From contig JACZKE010000046.1 of the NCBI GenBank assembly GCA_014860225.1, forward strand, positions 62,001-126,000: a DNA stretch of 64,000 nucleotides, read 5' to 3'. The DNA is from Desulfuromonadales bacterium. Lineage in GTDB: Bacteria; Desulfobacterota; Desulfuromonadia; Desulfuromonadales; BM103. The translations under genes and the position numbers were made by a program. Below, one piece after another: positions 5,657-35,386 of this stretch. Numbering within the stretch: the first letter of the stretch is position 1; each line of letters begins with the position of its first letter. The notes under the pieces were generated by a model. The model saw nothing but the letters and a program-made list of their open reading frames with translations, ran no database searches and was not told the origin of the DNA.

Positions 5657-5928
5657 GACAGCGATCCTTTAAGTCTGTTCAACGTTGCAGAGCGCATTCA
5701 GAAAAGTACCACGCTCTGACAACAGAGTGCGTATCATTTTCACGCAATTGTAAATGAGGTGCTCATTAATTACGACTACAAACAAAGAAGAAAGGTTTAT
5801 GCCCATAAAACCTGTGTGTTGAATGGTCGGCAACATGAGGGTATTTCAGCAACAGCAGCTTCTTAACTGCCTGTCAATACAGGAGATAAACAGTAAATCA
5901 TGCTTTGCTTACAGAGCGTAAAAGAATA
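5657..5928. other. Intergenic region with no recognised gene
   Basis: This stretch lies upstream of the lone acyltransferase gene and downstream of the zinc-ribbon gene. I found no ORF with a family signature and no convincing promoter. An imperfect inverted repeat around 5716-5736 (CTCTG paired with CAGAG) is the only structure noted. It presumably holds the acyltransferase promoter on the minus strand. Confidence 0.5.
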
Positions 5929-5950
5929 GCCCGGAACTGTTGCTCCGGGC
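5929..5950 (-). terminator. Intrinsic terminator after the zinc-ribbon gene
   Basis: GCCCGGA at 5929-5935 pairs with TCCGGGC at 5944-5950 (7-bp stem, 8-nt loop). Read on the minus strand it is followed by a U-rich TATTCTTTTA. It begins 24 bp after the stop of the small gene at 5974. Confidence 0.6.
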
Positions 5951-5973
5951 TTTATCTGGGATGTGGTTCCTAC

Positions 5974-6129
5974 TCAACCGAGGAAAACATTATGACTGCG
6001 GGCACGATTGGCCAGAATTGTCGGATCTACAACCTCACCACAGGAGCAACACTTCCATGCATCAAAAGCGCGAACAAAATCATAATACTTCTCAGCGTAC
6101 ATGCGGGCTTTACACTTTGGGCATCTCAC
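5974..6129 (-). CDS. Small zinc-ribbon protein (51 residues)
   Basis: A short reading frame with a GTG start, encoding a basic 51-residue protein. It begins MRCPKCKARMYAEKYYDF and has the second pair in WKCCSCGEVVDP, giving CPKC-x20-CCSCG, a classic zinc ribbon. The C-terminal half reads PTILANRARS. GGAGG lies 7 nt before the GTG, a sigma-70 promoter lies at 6152-6180 and a terminator follows, so it looks like a complete single-gene transcription unit. It resembles small zinc-ribbon proteins I associate with Geobacter relatives, whose function is unknown. Nucleic-acid binding is plausible but not shown. Confidence 0.85.
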   Translation of the reverse strand: MRCPKCKARMYAEKYYDFVRAFDAWKCCSCGEVVDPTILANRARSHNVFLG

Positions 6130-6151
6130 GGTGTTACCTCCTTGCTTACAT

Positions 6152-6180
6152 ACTTAACAGAATGCGACGCGTACTTTCAA
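6152..6180 (-). promoter_or_regulatory. Sigma-70 promoter of the zinc-ribbon gene
   Basis: On the minus strand TTGAAA (6180-6175) and TTAAGT (6157-6152) are separated by 17 bp, just upstream of the GGAGG and GTG of the small gene. The -10 match is only moderate. The remaining sequence to 6295 shows no gene. Confidence 0.5.
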
Positions 6181-6295
6181 AATGTACTTAGGAGGTACTA
6201 CACAAGGCATGCCAACTTCAAATTAATCATTGTCTCCAAAATAGCGCTGGCCTAGACACAAAAGATTGCGCTGTATAAACAGCTACTTGCTCTTC

Positions 6296-6859
6296 TTAAA
6301 AGAATTCACTCCAGCTATTAACACGCTTTTTCCCTATACCATTTACTCTCATTAAGGCTTCAAGATGTCCATAATCGCCATTTACTTGACGGTCGATTTC
6401 AATTCGTTCAGCAAAAGCATCGCCGATGCCTGGCAAAGCGTTCCAATCCGTTCTGCTCATGCGGTCCGGATGCAGCGGGATTGTCATTGCAACACGATGA
6501 CTCGCCTTCATCCAACCTTGGAGCAGGACCCCGATTTTCTGATCTTTTTTTAATATTTTAAAGCTTTCACCTCCACGCAACGGCTGATACCAGACAGGAT
6601 CATTTGTCAATATTTCTCGCGACAGACCCTCCGTCAATTTTATGACATCACCAAGAGTCAAACCGTCATAAAATTGATACACACCAGGTTCCAATCCATC
6701 GCCCGATAGCTCTACATGAACAAAATCACACTCCAGAGGCAGAAAAGCCGGAAGATCTTCCGTTGTGGAAGCCTCCCGGCTCAAAATCAAAATCAAAAAG
6801 ATCACCACCGCCAGCACGATAATTGCCGACGGTGGCTTAATTAAGGGGTTAGTCAACAT
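6296..6859 (-). CDS. SLBB / helix-hairpin-helix (ComEA-like) membrane-anchored protein
   Basis: A 187-residue protein with an N-terminal membrane segment (about residues 12-27, [16 protein letters not shown]). A probable SLBB beta-grasp domain follows (about 55-110, with [17 protein letters not shown]). The C-terminal DNA-binding double helix-hairpin-helix has [16 protein letters not shown] and [12 protein letters not shown]. This order is that of ComEA, the extracytoplasmic DNA receptor for uptake during transformation. The start overlaps the end of cimA by 11 nt, so translation is probably coupled. No other competence gene is adjacent; a role in DNA uptake is inferred from the family. Confidence 0.82.
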
Positions 6860-8423
6860 GATCGTCGCGCATCAATTTGTACTGTACGGCATCTACCAGA
6901 GCATGATAGGAAGCATCTATGATGTTGTCACTGACACCGACTGTTCCCCAACGACCAGTTTTATCTCCAGACTCAATCAATACCCGGGTCACTGATGCCG
7001 TCCCCTTCCCTGCCGGCAGGACACGCACCTTGTAGTCAAAGAGCTTCATCTCTTTTAGTTGCGGATAAAATTGCTCGAGAGCTTTGCGCAGAGCATGATC
7101 CAGAGCATTGACCGGGCCGTTGCCCTCGGCAGCTGTATGTTCAATCCGTCCGCCTACCTTGACCTGTATGGTCGCCTCGGAAGTCGGCATTTCATCTTCA
7201 TGTCGTTTGGTATCGATGACCCGGAAGCCTATGACAGAGAAGTAGTTGCGCAGCTCCCCAGTGGCCCGGCGCATCAAAAGCTCAAAGGAAGCTTCCGCAC
7301 CTTCAAACTGAAACCCCTGATTCTCCAGGGTTTTGATCTCTTCGAGGATTTCGAGCGTAATCGGGTCCTTGCTATTCAGATTTACATTGAACTGCTCAGC
7401 CTTGGCCAGAATGTTGGCACGCCCGGAGAGATCGGAGACCAGCACACGGGTCACATTACCGACCAGTTCCGGCCGCATATGCTCATAGGTTTCTGGGTGG
7501 CGCTGGATTGCGGATACATGCACGCCACCTTTATGGGCAAATGCAGAGTTGCCGACATAAGGCTGGTGCTTGTTCGGCACCAGGTTGGCGAGTTCGTAGA
7601 TATAGCGTGAAGCGACACGCAGGTTCTTCAATTGTTCATCGGAAACACACTCATGCCCCATCTTCAATTTGAGTGCAGGTATGATCGAGCAGAGGTTGGC
7701 ATTGCCACAACGTTCACCGAAACCGTTGATGGTTCCCTGAACATGTACCGCACCCTGTTCGACCGCAACCAGAGTATTGGCTACAGCACACTCACTGTCA
7801 TTGTGAGCATGAATACCCAGGGGTGTCTTGATGTGTTTCTTGACCTTCTTGATGATGTCGGCAACCTCGAAAGGCATCGAGCCGCCGTTAGTATCACACA
7901 GGACGATACAGTCGACTCCTGCTTGTTGAGCCGCTTCCAGTGTTTTAATGGCGTACTCTGGATTCGCCTTATAACCATCGAAGAAATGCTCGGCATCATA
8001 AACGACCTCAGGCACATTGCCTTTCAGGTAGTCCAGTGAATCATAGATCAGTTCGAGATTTTCCTCCAGACTGATGCGCAGCGCTTCGCGAACGTGAAAA
8101 TCCCAGGTTTTGCCGAAAATCGTAACTGTATCCGCCTCTGCCTGAATCAAGGTCTGAATGTTATTGTCCTTTGCAGGAGTCGTCTTTGCTCGACGAGTCG
8201 AACCAAACGCCGCAACCTTGGCATGATTGAGAGTAATCTTCTTAACGTCCTTGAAGAAGGCAATGTCCTTGGGGTTTGATCCGGGCCAGCCACCTTCGAT
8301 ATAGTCGATGCCAAGCTCATCAAGCTTCTGTGCAATGCGAATCTTGTCAGCGACCAGAAAGGATACATCTTCAGACTGGGTACCGTCGCGCAAGGTTGTG
8401 TCATACAGAAAAACTCTACTCAT
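6849..8423 (-). CDS. cimA: (R)-citramalate synthase
   Basis: CimA condenses pyruvate and acetyl-CoA to citramalate, the threonine-independent entry to isoleucine. The 524-residue length and the start [18 protein letters not shown] match the citramalate-synthase branch of the isopropylmalate-synthase family, with the TLRDG metal and substrate site. [14 protein letters not shown] and [15 protein letters not shown] are the other catalytic barrel segments. The C-terminal 130 residues form the LeuA-type regulatory dimerisation domain. GGAGAGG precedes the ATG. It lies 36 bp downstream of lysC, so two steps of amino-acid supply share a transcript. This pathway is established in Geobacter. Confidence 0.95.
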
Positions 8424-8459: not shown

Positions 8460-9695
8460 TCAATGTTCCTGGGTAACCTGTCCTTTATCCAGCTCAAAGG
8501 CTGCATGCAGGACGCGGACAGCAAGTTCAGTGTACTTGTCATCGATAACACAGGACACCTTGATCTCACTGGTTGAAATCATCTGGATATTGATCCCCTC
8601 AGCAGAAAGTGTCTCAAACATTTTGCTGGCAATGCCTGAATGGGAACGCATCCCCACACCAACGATTGAGACCTTGGCGATCGACACATTGCTCTCTACA
8701 CCGGCAGCACCAATTTTGACGGCGGTTTCCTCCACAATTTTGAGCGCTTTTTTGAAATCGGCCCGTGGAACCGTGAAGGTCATATCGGTAGAGCCAGCAT
8801 GCGAGACATTCTGGATAATCATATCCACAGTAATGTTCGCCGTCGAAAGAGGCGAGAACACCTGCGCAGCAATCCCCGGCATGTCCGGCACGCGCAGCAC
8901 GGAAATCTTTGCTTCATCCTTATTATAGGTAACTCCCGAAACCAGGACCGTTTCCATATCAGCATCCTCCTTCATCACCAGTGTCCCTGGATTGTCATTT
9001 AGGCTGGAACGTACATGAACGACGACATTGTACTTCTTGGCAAATTCGACTGAACGGATCTGCAAAACCTTGGACCCGAGTGAGGCCATTTCGAGCATTT
9101 CGTCATAAGAGATCTTTTCCATCTTGGAGGCCTCGGCCACAATCCGGGGATCAGTGGTATAAACACCATCGACGTCGGTCAGGATTTCGCAGACATCTGC
9201 GTGCAGCGCCGCTGCAACGGCTACTGCAGAGGTATCGGAACCGCCGCGCCCCAAAGTGGTAATATTGTTGTCGCGATCTATTCCCTGGAATCCCGCAACG
9301 ATAACTATCGTGCCATTCTGCAGGTCTTCACGAATGTTGGTATCCTGAATCTCTTCGATGCGTGCTTTCGAAAAAGAGTTGTCGGTGTAGACCGGGATCT
9401 GCCAGCCGAGATAACTCTTGGCCTTATATCCCATCGACTGCAGAGCCATCGACAGCAACGCGATGGAGACCTGTTCTCCAGCCGCGACCAGCACATCATA
9501 CTCACGCTCGCTCGGGAACTCGCACATCTCCTCGGCCAGGGCGACCAGCTTGTTGGTCTCGCCAGCCATAGCCGAGACGACAACGACCATGTCATTGCCC
9601 TCATCATAAGTACGTGCAACCCGCCGCGCTACATTCTGTATTTTTTCTACGGTCCCTACTGAGGTACCGCCATACTTCTGAACCACCAGTGCCAT
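8460..9695 (-). CDS. lysC: Aspartate kinase
   Basis: Aspartokinase phosphorylates aspartate, the first step to lysine, methionine and threonine. The 411-residue protein begins [18 protein letters not shown] (the KYGGTS signature of the amino-acid kinase fold). It has [16 protein letters not shown] for aspartate and ATP binding, and two C-terminal ACT domains (about 265-405) for feedback control. Length is that of the usual monofunctional enzyme with no homoserine dehydrogenase fused. It has its own strong promoter and about 70 nt of leader. No lysine riboswitch was recognised in that leader. Confidence 0.97.
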
Positions 9696-20600: not shown

Positions 20601-20677
20601 TGGTGGCGGTGCAGAGATTCGAACTCCGGACACTGCGGATATGAGCCGCATGCTCTAACCAACTGAGCTACACCGCC
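20601..20677 (-). tRNA. tRNA-Met (CAU), elongator type
   Basis: A 77-nt tRNA with encoded CCA. The acceptor stem GGCGGTG pairs fully with CACCGCC. The D arm has AGCTCAGTTGGTTAGAGC, the anticodon stem TGCGG/CCGCA encloses loop CTCATAT with anticodon CAT, and the T arm has GTTCGAATC. A fully paired acceptor distinguishes it from the initiator next door. A CAT anticodon could in principle be tRNA-Ile2 (the TilS substrate), but the sequence fits elongator Met better. Confidence 0.9.
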
Positions 20678-20718
20678 GAAAACCAGCAGGCCGCCGAGAT
20701 GGCGGCCGTTTACTTATT

Positions 20719-20795
<77 letters not shown>

Positions 20796-32200: not shown

Positions 32201-33397
32201 TTAGAGTTCTACACCCATTGCTTCGGCAACGGTGTGAATATCTTTATCGCCGCGACCGGAAAGGCAGACGACGATCACTGCGTCCGGGGAAAGCTCCGGA
32301 GCAAGCTTGAGAAGATGGGCAACAGCATGGGCACTTTCCAGGGCAGGAATAATCCCTTCCATTTCCGTCAACATCCGGAAAGCCGCAAGGGCCTCATCAT
32401 CGGTGACTGAAACATATTCTGCGCGGCCGAGATCGTTGAGAAGAGCATGTTCAGGTCCGACACCAGGGTAGTCCAGCCCGGCTGAGATCGAGTGGGCATG
32501 TTGGATCTGGCCATCTTCGTTTTGCAAAAGGTACGTCTTGTTGCCATGCAGTACGCCGACTCGACCGGCAGAGATGCTCGCCGCATGCTTGCCGGTTGCC
32601 ACACCGAGCCCAGCCGCCTCGACCCCGATCAGGCGCACTGATGAATCATTAATGAACGGATAAAAGAGCCCCATGGCGTTAGAGCCGCCACCGATGCATG
32701 CTACGGCAACATCGGGCAGACGCCCTTCCGCATCAAGTATCTGTTGTTTGGATTCAAGACCGATAACAGACTGGAAATCGCGAACCATCTGCGGATAAGG
32801 GTGCGGTCCGGCCACCGTGCCAATCACATAAAAGGTGTCACGTACATGACTGACCCAATAGCGCAGGGCTTCGTTCATGGCATCCTTAAGGGTTGCGGTG
32901 CCACTGGTGACTTCATGGACACGGGCACCGAGCAGTTTCATGCGAAAGACATTCAGAGACTGGCGTCTGATATCCTCAGTCCCCATAAAAATGTCGCATT
33001 CCATATCGAAGAGCGCTGCAACAGTCGCTGTCGCAACCCCATGTTGTCCGGCACCGGTTTCAGCAATCACCTTGCGTTTGCCCATACGACGCGCCAGGAG
33101 AACCTGTCCGACAGTATTGTTGACCTTGTGGGCGCCAGTATGATTCAAATCCTCACGTTTCAGGTAAATCTTGGCGCCTCCCAGATGTTCTGTTAATCTC
33201 CGTGCGAAATAAAGCGGGCTTGGCCGACCGACGTAGTCTTTGAGATAATTTTTAAACTCTGACTGGAACGAGGCATCGACCTGAGACTGATTGTAGCTCT
33301 CCTCCAGTTCCAGCAGTGCCGGCATCAGGGTCTCAGCAACATAGCGGCCACCATATTGGCCGAAATGTCCGAGAAGATCAGGCTGTTGGTAGCTCAC
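32201..33397 (-). CDS. trpB: Tryptophan synthase beta subunit (TrpB1 type)
   Basis: PLP enzyme joining indole and serine to tryptophan. The 398-residue protein starts [20 protein letters not shown] and has the PLP lysine in [18 protein letters not shown] (about residue 90). [15 protein letters not shown] binds the cofactor phosphate. These features mark the TrpB1 form that complexes with TrpA. The GTG start follows the trpF stop directly (TAA-GTG). A second, distinct trpB2 lies two genes upstream. Confidence 0.98.
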
Positions 33398-34033: not shown

Positions 34034-35386
34034 TCAGCCAACCTTGGGCAAATGAGACAATGATTCTTTGATCGCGTCTTCCGGGTACTCATAATCTTGC
34101 AACTCGTTGTTGAGATAGGCATCGTAAGCGGCCATGTCGACATGCCCATGGCCGGACAAGTTGAAGAGAATAACTCTCTCCTTGCCTTCCTCTTTGGCCA
34201 GCAGGGCCTCGTCAATCGCGCCACGGATGGCGTGGGACGATTCGGGGGCAGGTATAATCGACTCAGTACGAGCAAACAATACGGCCGCTTCGAAACAGGC
34301 AATCTGTGGCACCGCTCTGGTTTCAACAATCCCTTCATGCACAAGCTGCGACACCAGAGGAGAGGCACCATGGTAGCGCAGACCACCGGCATGAATGCCA
34401 GGGGGCATGAAATCATGACCAAGGGTGTACATCCGTGAGATAGGCGCCATCTTTGCCGTATCACCGTAATCAAAAGCGTAAATGCCCTTGGTCAGAGTAG
34501 GACAGCTGGCCGGTTCTACCGCCAGGAGTCGAACCTCCTTGCCGTTTGCCTTGTCCGAAACGAAGGGGAAGGCAATCCCGGCAAAATTGGAACCACCACC
34601 ATGACAGCCGATAACCACATCAGGGTAGTCGCCGGCAATCTTGAGCTGCTCCTTGGCTTCGAGGCCGATGATCGTCTGATGCATACAGACATGATTCAGC
34701 ACACTGCCGAGAGAGTAGCGGGTATCCTCATGGGTAGCCGCATCTTCAACCGCTTCGCTGATGGCGATACCCAGAGAGCCCTGGTTGTCGGGATCTTTGG
34801 CGAGGATAGCCCGACCTGCGCTGGTCCGGTTTGAGGGTGAAGGAAAAACCTCTGCACCCCACAGCTGCATCATGCTTTTCCGATAAGGCTTCTGACCGTA
34901 AGAGACCTTGACCATGTAAACCGTACACTTCAGGCCGAAAAGCTGGCAAGCCATAGCTATGGATGAGCCCCACTGCCCTGCACCGGTTTCTGAAGCAATC
35001 CGCTTAGTGCCTGCAATTTTGTTGTAGTACGCCTGCGGTACTGCGGTATTCGGCTTATGAGATCCGGCCGGGGACACGCCTTCATACTTGTAATAAATTT
35101 TTGCCGGAGTTCCGAGGGCCTTTTCAAGTTTGTGCGCCCGAAACATGGGTGAGGGGCGCCATAACTTGTAAATTTCCCTGACCTCTTCCGGAATATCTAT
35201 CCAGCGCTCTTGAGAAACCTCCTGCTCAATGAGGCCCATGGGAAAAAGCGGCAGGAGATCGTCCGGGGTCACCGGCTGCATCGTCACGGGGTGGATGACC
35301 GGCGCCATCTGCCCGGGCATATCCGGAATAATATTATACCACTGCTTGGGAAGTTGGTCTTCACTGAGAAGAATCTTGGTCAGCAT
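34034..35386 (-). CDS. Tryptophan synthase beta-like protein, TrpB2 type
   Basis: A 450-residue PLP protein of the TrpB2 family. The PLP lysine lies in [20 protein letters not shown] (about residue 120); TrpB1 has NHTGAHK there. [16 protein letters not shown] binds phosphate, and family-specific insertions and a longer N-terminus explain the length. TrpB2 proteins usually do not bind TrpA well and are thought to convert free indole and serine, or O-phosphoserine in some archaea, to tryptophan. Both types in one trp operon is noteworthy. GGAG precedes the ATG. Exact substrate is not resolved here. Confidence 0.94.

Follow-up and report, generated by a model that had tools for sequence, protein, structure and literature searches.

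A zinc-ribbon microprotein gene of Desulfuromonadia and its predicted sigma-54-type promoter lacking the -12 C

INTRODUCTION

Is a 51-codon open reading frame in the genome of a Desulfuromonadales bacterium a true gene, and if so, what kind of protein does it encode, and from which promoter is it transcribed? The reading frame lies on contig JACZKE010000046.1, within a stretch of 64,000 nucleotides that was analysed as a whole and is referred to here as the window. An earlier note on this DNA had described a stand-alone GTG-start gene for a zinc-ribbon protein, equipped with a Shine-Dalgarno sequence, a terminator and a promoter of 17-bp spacing. Textbook sigma-54 promoters, which carry GC at -12, remain shut until an ATPase opens them, and loss of the -12 C is known for mutations made in the laboratory and for a small group of weak sites. 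The best reading of the locus is that of a core zinc-ribbon microprotein, probably transcribed alone, from a sigma-54-type promoter that would have evolved without the -12 C. A search of the openly licensed literature, by titles and abstract openings, retrieved no paper on the gene family or its promoter.

RESULTS

The reading frame is a conserved gene of the class

On the minus strand of the window, an open reading frame of 51 codons runs from a GTG at 6129 to 5974 and translates as MRCPKCKARMYAEKYYDFVRAFDAWKCCSCGEVVDPTILANRARSHNVFLG. A GGAGG Shine-Dalgarno sequence, read directly at 6141..6137, stands 7 nt ahead of the GTG, and a hairpin resembling an intrinsic terminator, with a T-rich tail and followed by ATTCTTTTAC, lies past the stop codon at 5951..5928 on the same strand. 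The hairpin was assigned by a terminator scan, in which four terminator-like sites were found near the gene against 0.5 expected (751 bp, both strands scanned), and by a class-wide count: of 106 distinct class loci, 81 have a terminator-like hairpin no more than 120 nt past the stop codon, versus 2.1% in letter shuffles. The start codon, the GGAGG and the terminator were thus found as the earlier note had given them.

Homologues were present in 247 of 277 genomes of the class Desulfuromonadia (E ≤ 0.01) and in 172 of 187 among those of good quality. The class name is inferred from named relatives; the best-matching named records, among the best 80 of 186 relatives, are Desulfuromonadales, Geobacter, Geotalea, Geomonas, Malonomonas, Geothermobacter and similar. 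Of the matching genomes, 233 hold one match and 14 hold two, and second, diverged copies of the gene lie elsewhere in two class genomes (L047 in G105 and L048 in G001), both of which keep the C-less promoter element described below. No match at E ≤ 0.01 was found in the other 30 of the 277 genomes, including the four listed members of genus g54, so that some members of the class do without the gene. When 395 genomes were sampled more widely across the phylum, 59 gave a match (E ≤ 0.001), 16 of them from the same class, and some of the others contain up to 10 copies. A mobile or phage origin was considered and rejected: there was no match at E ≤ 1 in 50,697 phage records, and 72,556 plasmid records yielded a single poor one (55% of the query, E 0.5).

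The protein is exactly 51 residues long at 129 of 130 class loci, which start with ATG in 125 cases and with GTG in 5. Identity among class loci amounts to 84% at codon position 1, 90% at position 2 and 47% at position 3, and the median dN/dS is 0.061 (133 of 1,200 sampled pairs, only those with unsaturated dS). In an alignment of 29 sequences that includes the window's protein and reaches down to 35% identity, C3, C6, C27, C30, D35 and R42 are invariant, and M1, M10, E13, W25, G31, E32 and N41 are nearly so. The earlier note had proposed a search for homologues with conserved cysteines, and such homologues exist in number. These data bear on the idea that the reading frame arose by chance, for which its GTG start and a size under the limits of many gene finders could be adduced. 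Matches in 247 of 277 genomes, the invariant cysteines and the purifying selection speak against a chance reading frame, which is refuted by a protein that is conserved where third codon positions are not; that explanation retains virtually no probability, and we regard the mini-gene as real with near certainty.

The gene product is predicted to be a C4 zinc ribbon

The two invariant CxxC knuckles, C3-x2-C6 and C27-x2-C30, together with class-wide homologues and a structural model of two strands and a helix, agree with the zinc-ribbon reading that had been proposed, and a C4 zinc ribbon is the highly probable fold predicted from the sequence; W25, D35, N41 and R42 are conserved in addition. 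No Pfam-A family scored above its gathering cut-off for the window's protein, the best by E-value being SIR2 (17.5 versus 24 bits), and no NCBIfam model exceeded its curated cut-off. Scores under the NCBIfam cut-offs were 18.2 versus 20.2 bits for YgiT_finger (TIGR03831), 17 versus 37 bits for ECs_2282_CxxC (NF047912) and 15.9 versus 63 bits for RNA polymerase subunit P (NF001605). When 29 members were scanned against Pfam and NCBIfam, many families appeared with weak E-values, the best being 4.6e-05 (with cut-offs given for just the first member).

The best AlphaFold2 model has a mean pLDDT of 82.6 and a pTM of 0.58, with strands at 9-16 and 21-27 and a helix at 36-45; the other four models range from 76 down to 50. 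Sequence searches against solved structures returned weak matches, the best of which (E 0.0077) is a 12-residue rubredoxin stretch. The top-ranked solved folds are small zinc ribbons with weak scores, namely ZifS (Foldseek E 0.19) and RPB9-type ribbons (VIA Z up to 4.0), and none of the folds listed is close, with no Foldseek E ≤ 0.001 and no VIA Z ≥ 5. Both ZifS and RPB9 are absent from the sequence-search matches to solved structures.

A sigma-54-like element without the -12 C precedes the gene

The only strongly conserved block ahead of the Shine-Dalgarno sequence, in an alignment of the nearest relatives, resembles TGGCAYR-N5-TGTAATA. In the window it corresponds to TTGGCATGCCTTGTGTA at 6215..6199 on the minus strand, a sigma-54-like -24/-12 promoter. 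Its -24 part, TTGGCATG (6215..6208), holds the GG (6213-6212) inside a TTGGCAC-like hexamer, and the -12 G at 6201 is followed by T (6200) instead of C. Among 104 distinct class upstream regions, GGCA was found in 103 and GGCA-N7-TG[AT]A in 102. The latter pattern occurs in 0.5% of dinucleotide shuffles and never on the opposite strand of the 104, and no region contains GGCA-N7-TGC. The two misses of GGCA-N7-TG[AT]A are near-variants, TTGGCCCGGATCATGAAATA at L182 and TTGGCACGTAAAATGATACA at L180. The distance from the element to the start codon is 61-111 nt in 103 scored regions. Since the score used for picking sites rewarded the later T, G and A, counts from scored picking lean towards the pattern; plain patterns and a recount blind to the base after TG were used besides.

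In 20 further, more divergent class loci, 17 sites read G-T or G-A, two read GC (L340 and L341, of one genus), and L339 is without a TGGC site. The blind recount over 123 distinct regions gave G-T or G-A in 120 and GC in 2, with L339 tied between two weak sites; its site, CTGGAACGGCTTGTGCT, is by our own reading a third G-C. The recount drew on 150 loci (out of 151, L002 being set aside because it has no homologue), of which L008, L128 and L178 were dropped for too little upstream sequence, and identical upstream regions, such as those of L346 and L184, were counted once to give the 123. These loci are not a random sample, and large families such as f25 are under-sampled: they are the best protein matches of two overlapping searches, and they also include 20 regions of 19 genomes from larger contigs and 20 of the more divergent places listed. 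Those of assigned family come from at least 19 of 25 numbered families.

In passages of PMC2725144, the RpoN consensus of Geobacter sulfurreducens is given as TTGGCACGGTTTTTGCT, and 110 promoters are predicted. Because the C at -12 is missing, from the window's site (GT) as from 120 of 123 class regions, we call the element sigma-54-like and not a canonical sigma-54 promoter. Judged from its sequence, it is nonetheless quite probably a sigma-54-type promoter, and the combination of a real gene, a C4 zinc ribbon and a promoter of this type is, taken together, probable. A 5′ leader of about 60 nt (6130..6189, minus strand) is predicted from the -24/-12 position, with transcription expected to start some 12 nt beyond the -12 G.

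The promoter of 17-bp spacing that had been proposed did not hold up. A sigma-70-like string, TTGAAA-N17-TTAAGT, does exist at 6180..6152 on the minus strand, but the consensus scan omits it, and among the nearest relatives it sits in the non-conserved 5′ part; it is probably not the promoter. With this string not conserved and no conserved -35 or -10 in sight, sigma-70 as the main promoter was rejected. A -35 match of at least 4 of 6 bases was found upstream of the T-G-W-A-A-W string in 18% of cases versus 16% in the control, which argues that this string is not part of a sigma-70 promoter. Thus, the earlier note was correct about the gene and about its zinc-ribbon character, whereas its promoter was wrong and the most unusual feature of the locus had been missed.

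The gene probably forms a transcription unit of its own

Upstream on the minus strand, the window carries a gene whose product ends in a helix-hairpin-helix (HHH) motif (PF12836; 6296..6859), a citramalate-synthase-type gene (6849..8423; HMGL-like and LeuA_dimer, the name being inferred from these domains) and an aspartate-kinase-type gene (8460..9695; AA_kinase and ACT). Neighbouring reading frames were called greedily at 21 loci, a procedure that may miss genes. The centre of the HHH gene lies about 490-550 nt upstream in 15 of the 21 loci, and that of the citramalate synthase gene 1.4-1.7 kb upstream, on the same strand, in 15 and 6.4 kb away in a 16th; the aspartate kinase gene was found in 13, in one of them 7.8 kb away. 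None of the neighbours annotated in the window is a sigma-54 activator gene.

This arrangement could mean that the zinc-ribbon gene is expressed mainly through transcripts that run on from the genes for aspartate kinase, citramalate synthase and the HHH protein, and that it belongs to amino-acid metabolism, since at 15 of 21 loci the latter two genes each lie just upstream in the same orientation. The promoter element, however, persists at L041, L047, L048 and L050, where neither of them was found nearby and of which L047 and L048 are second copies, and read-through is a very improbable explanation. Together with the terminator-like hairpins, this retention of the element agrees with the stand-alone unit claimed for the locus, which we read from sequence as a putative core single-gene transcription unit of the class.

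Two other features of the window were seen in passing: two different tryptophan-synthase-beta-like genes (names from translations) stand close together in a trp row at 32201-33397 and 34034-35386, and a tandem pair of tRNA-Met(cat) genes at 20601-20795, all on the minus strand.

Some relatives outside the class carry canonical sigma-54 sites

At two loci outside the class, L082 and L083, whose proteins are 54-55% identical and where citramalate synthase still adjoins, the GC version of the site (TGC) is present. A family of another class, with a match in 16 of its 17 genomes, was read at 30 loci. Each of the 17 most similar of these (16 genomes) has, 39-55 nt ahead of its start codon, a canonical -24/-12 site, and in 16 of the 17 a GAFTGA motif is encoded 0.9-1.3 kb upstream on the same strand. 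The Pfam sigma-54 activator domain was found in all ten of these 16 GAFTGA loci that were scanned, and also at L102, which is the same place as an eleventh of them. The L102 activator consists of a receiver, a sigma-54 AAA+ domain and a Fis helix, and a gene for a lone receiver protein follows downstream of the zinc-ribbon gene there; a gene for a PAS-type sigma-54 activator stands ahead of the paralogue L104. The remaining 13 of the 30 loci have neither a canonical site nor GAFTGA within 1.5-kb flanks; one of them, L288, has a C-less site. Sites of the TGGCAAAAAAATTGCA type occur at four loci of another out-of-class family (L093, L095, L098 and L117).

When 42 out-of-class rows were scanned (some start codons are uncertain, and L108 and L121 supply two rows each), at least 11 of 12 sigma-54 positions matched in 10; in three of the rows, shuffled sequences also scored 11 or 12. 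The tie between the family and sigma-54 thus recurs, but with only 10 of the 42 rows at this level it is not universal. As a separate observation, the genomes G462, G658, G564, G525 and G332, of other classes, contain 5-10 copies of the zinc-ribbon family, several of them beside receiver, sensor-kinase or sigma-54 activator genes.

These sites help to judge whether the GGCA-N7-TGWA block is instead an operator, bound by some unrelated regulator or by the gene's own product, with transcription starting at a poorly conserved sigma-70 promoter downstream. In favour of this stand the string TTGAAA-N17-TTAAGT in the window and the absence of the -12 C from 120 of 123 regions, when, in passages of PMC4551910, 96% of sigma-54 promoters have this base, which is said there to help hold basal transcription down. 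On the other hand, the Geobacter RpoN consensus presented in PMC2725144 is matched by the -24 TTGGCAYR and, exactly, by the GG-N10-G spacing, GC versions are found at two class loci (three by our own reading) and at L082 and L083, a subgroup of out-of-class relatives has textbook sigma-54 sites, and no conserved -35 or -10 was seen. An operator is therefore an improbable account of the block, and a sigma-54-type promoter remains the preferred one.

Nearly all glnB and nifH sites read in the class keep the -12 C

Two genes served as controls, each represented by the 30 best matches from searches of 146 (glnB) and 117 (nifH) class genomes; with such best-match sampling, both sets lean towards the window's order. 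glnB is driven by RpoN in G. sulfurreducens according to the primer extension reported in passages of PMC2725144. At the 30 glnB loci, a site was found in 26 and none in 4; all 26 read GC, and one of them also holds a second, weaker GA string. At the 30 nifH loci, 28 sites read GC, one GG and one GA, the last belonging to the genome of the window, where the site upstream of nifH, TTGGCACAACTCATGAA, is without the -12 C (L298/L322, C46 43005-43021, minus strand). As both genes keep GC, the missing C is not a habit of the class.

The genome of the window encodes RpoN, as a single Sigma54_DBD match of 220.5 bits. It contains 29 canonical sigma-54 sites versus 5 for a reversed-pattern control, one of them before a pilin-like gene and one before glnB. 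The exact GT form occurs once, at the zinc-ribbon gene itself. With up to 2 mismatches, 45 GT-form sites were counted versus 70 in the reversed-pattern control, and a GT-form regulon in this genome was rejected on that count. Equally loose patterns gave 11 sites with the C (control 2) and 8 without it (control 4); the latter comparison offers weak evidence that the C-less variant may not be wholly private to the zinc-ribbon gene.

Of the 8 sites without the C, one is that of the zinc-ribbon gene itself, one lies upstream of nifH (L298), and three intergenic ones precede plausible genes that, by names read from translations, are aminotransferase-like (L296:312-328), aldehyde-ferredoxin-oxidoreductase-like (L297:316-332) and c-type-cytochrome-like (L300). 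At about 200-240 of L297, ahead of the aldehyde-ferredoxin-oxidoreductase-like gene, there is a palindrome whose arms are 16 bp long, CCTATCAGAATGATAA-cca-TTATCATTCTGATAGG; a similar sequence occurs upstream in L296, and we take the palindrome to resemble a metal-regulator box.

The control genes bear on another explanation, in which the promoter is an ordinary activator-dependent sigma-54 promoter, driven by an enhancer-binding protein that acts from a distance; the T or A at -12 would then do no more than adjust binding, and the loss of the C would say nothing in particular about basal control. nifH is a classical, tightly activator-dependent sigma-54 target, and its site in the same genome is also C-less, so that loss of the C does not by itself imply independence from an activator, and the base may be expendable for control here; the out-of-class subgroup that adjoins activator genes favours the same explanation. 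Two observations count against it. The C is lacking from 120 of 123 regions, whereas the glnB and nifH promoters of the class retain GC, and this near-fixation points to selection for the missing C; and an alignment of the nearest relatives showed no enhancer-like conserved block in about 330 nt upstream. Ordinary activator dependence is a serious contender that we nevertheless rate below an even chance.

DISCUSSION

How might a sigma-54-type promoter work without the -12 C? RNA polymerase with RpoN would bind the -24 GG and the -12 G, and transcripts in the window would begin with the leader of about 60 nt. As the C that helps keep the closed complex silent is missing, the basal level could be raised or the need for an enhancer-binding protein relaxed, either of which would provide a steady supply of the protein. 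The class would then have fixed a leakier, less activator-bound version of the promoter for the zinc-ribbon gene. Such relaxed control is a tentative proposal, to which we give slightly less than an even chance. In passages of PMC4551910, the -12 C is not strictly conserved at the E. coli sites that show activator bypass, and this bypass is low-level and attributed to loss of sigma-54 Region I, which suggests that wild-type RpoN may not fire here without an activator; a Neisseria study (PMC6755734) restates the point about the -12 C. Sigma-54-dependent repression at some E. coli promoters, also mentioned in PMC4551910, raises the thought that sigma-54 polymerase is parked at a promoter it cannot open and acts as a roadblock or repressor over another promoter. 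In passages of the same source, however, it is GC at -12, and not its absence, that is called repressive, and no conserved sigma-70 promoter overlaps the element, which makes a roadblock a very unlikely role for a site that we continue to read as a sigma-54-type promoter.

The protein itself would fold round one Zn(II) as a two-knuckle beta-ribbon with the helix at 36-45. The weakest step in our proposal is its function: it may work by contact with another protein, as an adaptor in sigma-54-linked signalling. We consider this role doubtful, though plausible; it is suggested by the out-of-class subgroup that lies behind NtrC-type activator genes under canonical sigma-54 promoters, and the genes beside some out-of-class relatives hint at two-component as well as sigma-54 signalling.

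In its broadest form, the proposal is that a naturally evolved kind of sigma-54 promoter, devoid of the -12 C and hence of the tight enhancer-dependent lock, drives a core zinc-ribbon microprotein in most Desulfuromonadia, and that this protein is one of a family of small zinc ribbons, so far undescribed, which sigma-54 activator circuits repeatedly have as outputs and possibly as feedback partners. As a whole, this must be regarded as speculative and rather unlikely. An orthologous promoter in which the -24 element, the spacing and the -12 G are all retained, with the C missing in 120 of 123 regions, nevertheless amounts to a natural experiment on the role of the -12 C, and a single T-to-C change could tell whether nature employs a leaky sigma-54 promoter. 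The unnamed family of small proteins belongs to the core of Geobacter-type bacteria, and in another class it is linked to genes for NtrC-type activators.

Comparison with known systems

Among protein families, YgiT_finger, ECs_2282_CxxC and RNA polymerase subunit P are like the window's protein in a weak match to the cysteine pattern and unlike it in that the protein stays under all three curated cut-offs. ZifS (TTHA0897 of Thermus, PDB 8yoz) and the RPB9 ribbons of RNA polymerases are alike as small beta-ribbons, with scores that are typical of any common small fold and are no proof of kinship.

The class element shares with the RpoN consensus of G. sulfurreducens, in the form presented in PMC2725144, the -24 TTGGCAYR, the GG-N10-G spacing, the -12 G and an rpoN gene in the genome, and it differs at the -12 C, where 120 of 123 regions have T or A instead. 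The E. coli -12/-24 bypass sites described in passages of PMC4551910 are alike in that the -12 C is not strictly conserved; they comprise few sites in one species and are attributed to the loss of Region I, whereas here one gene is C-less across a class.
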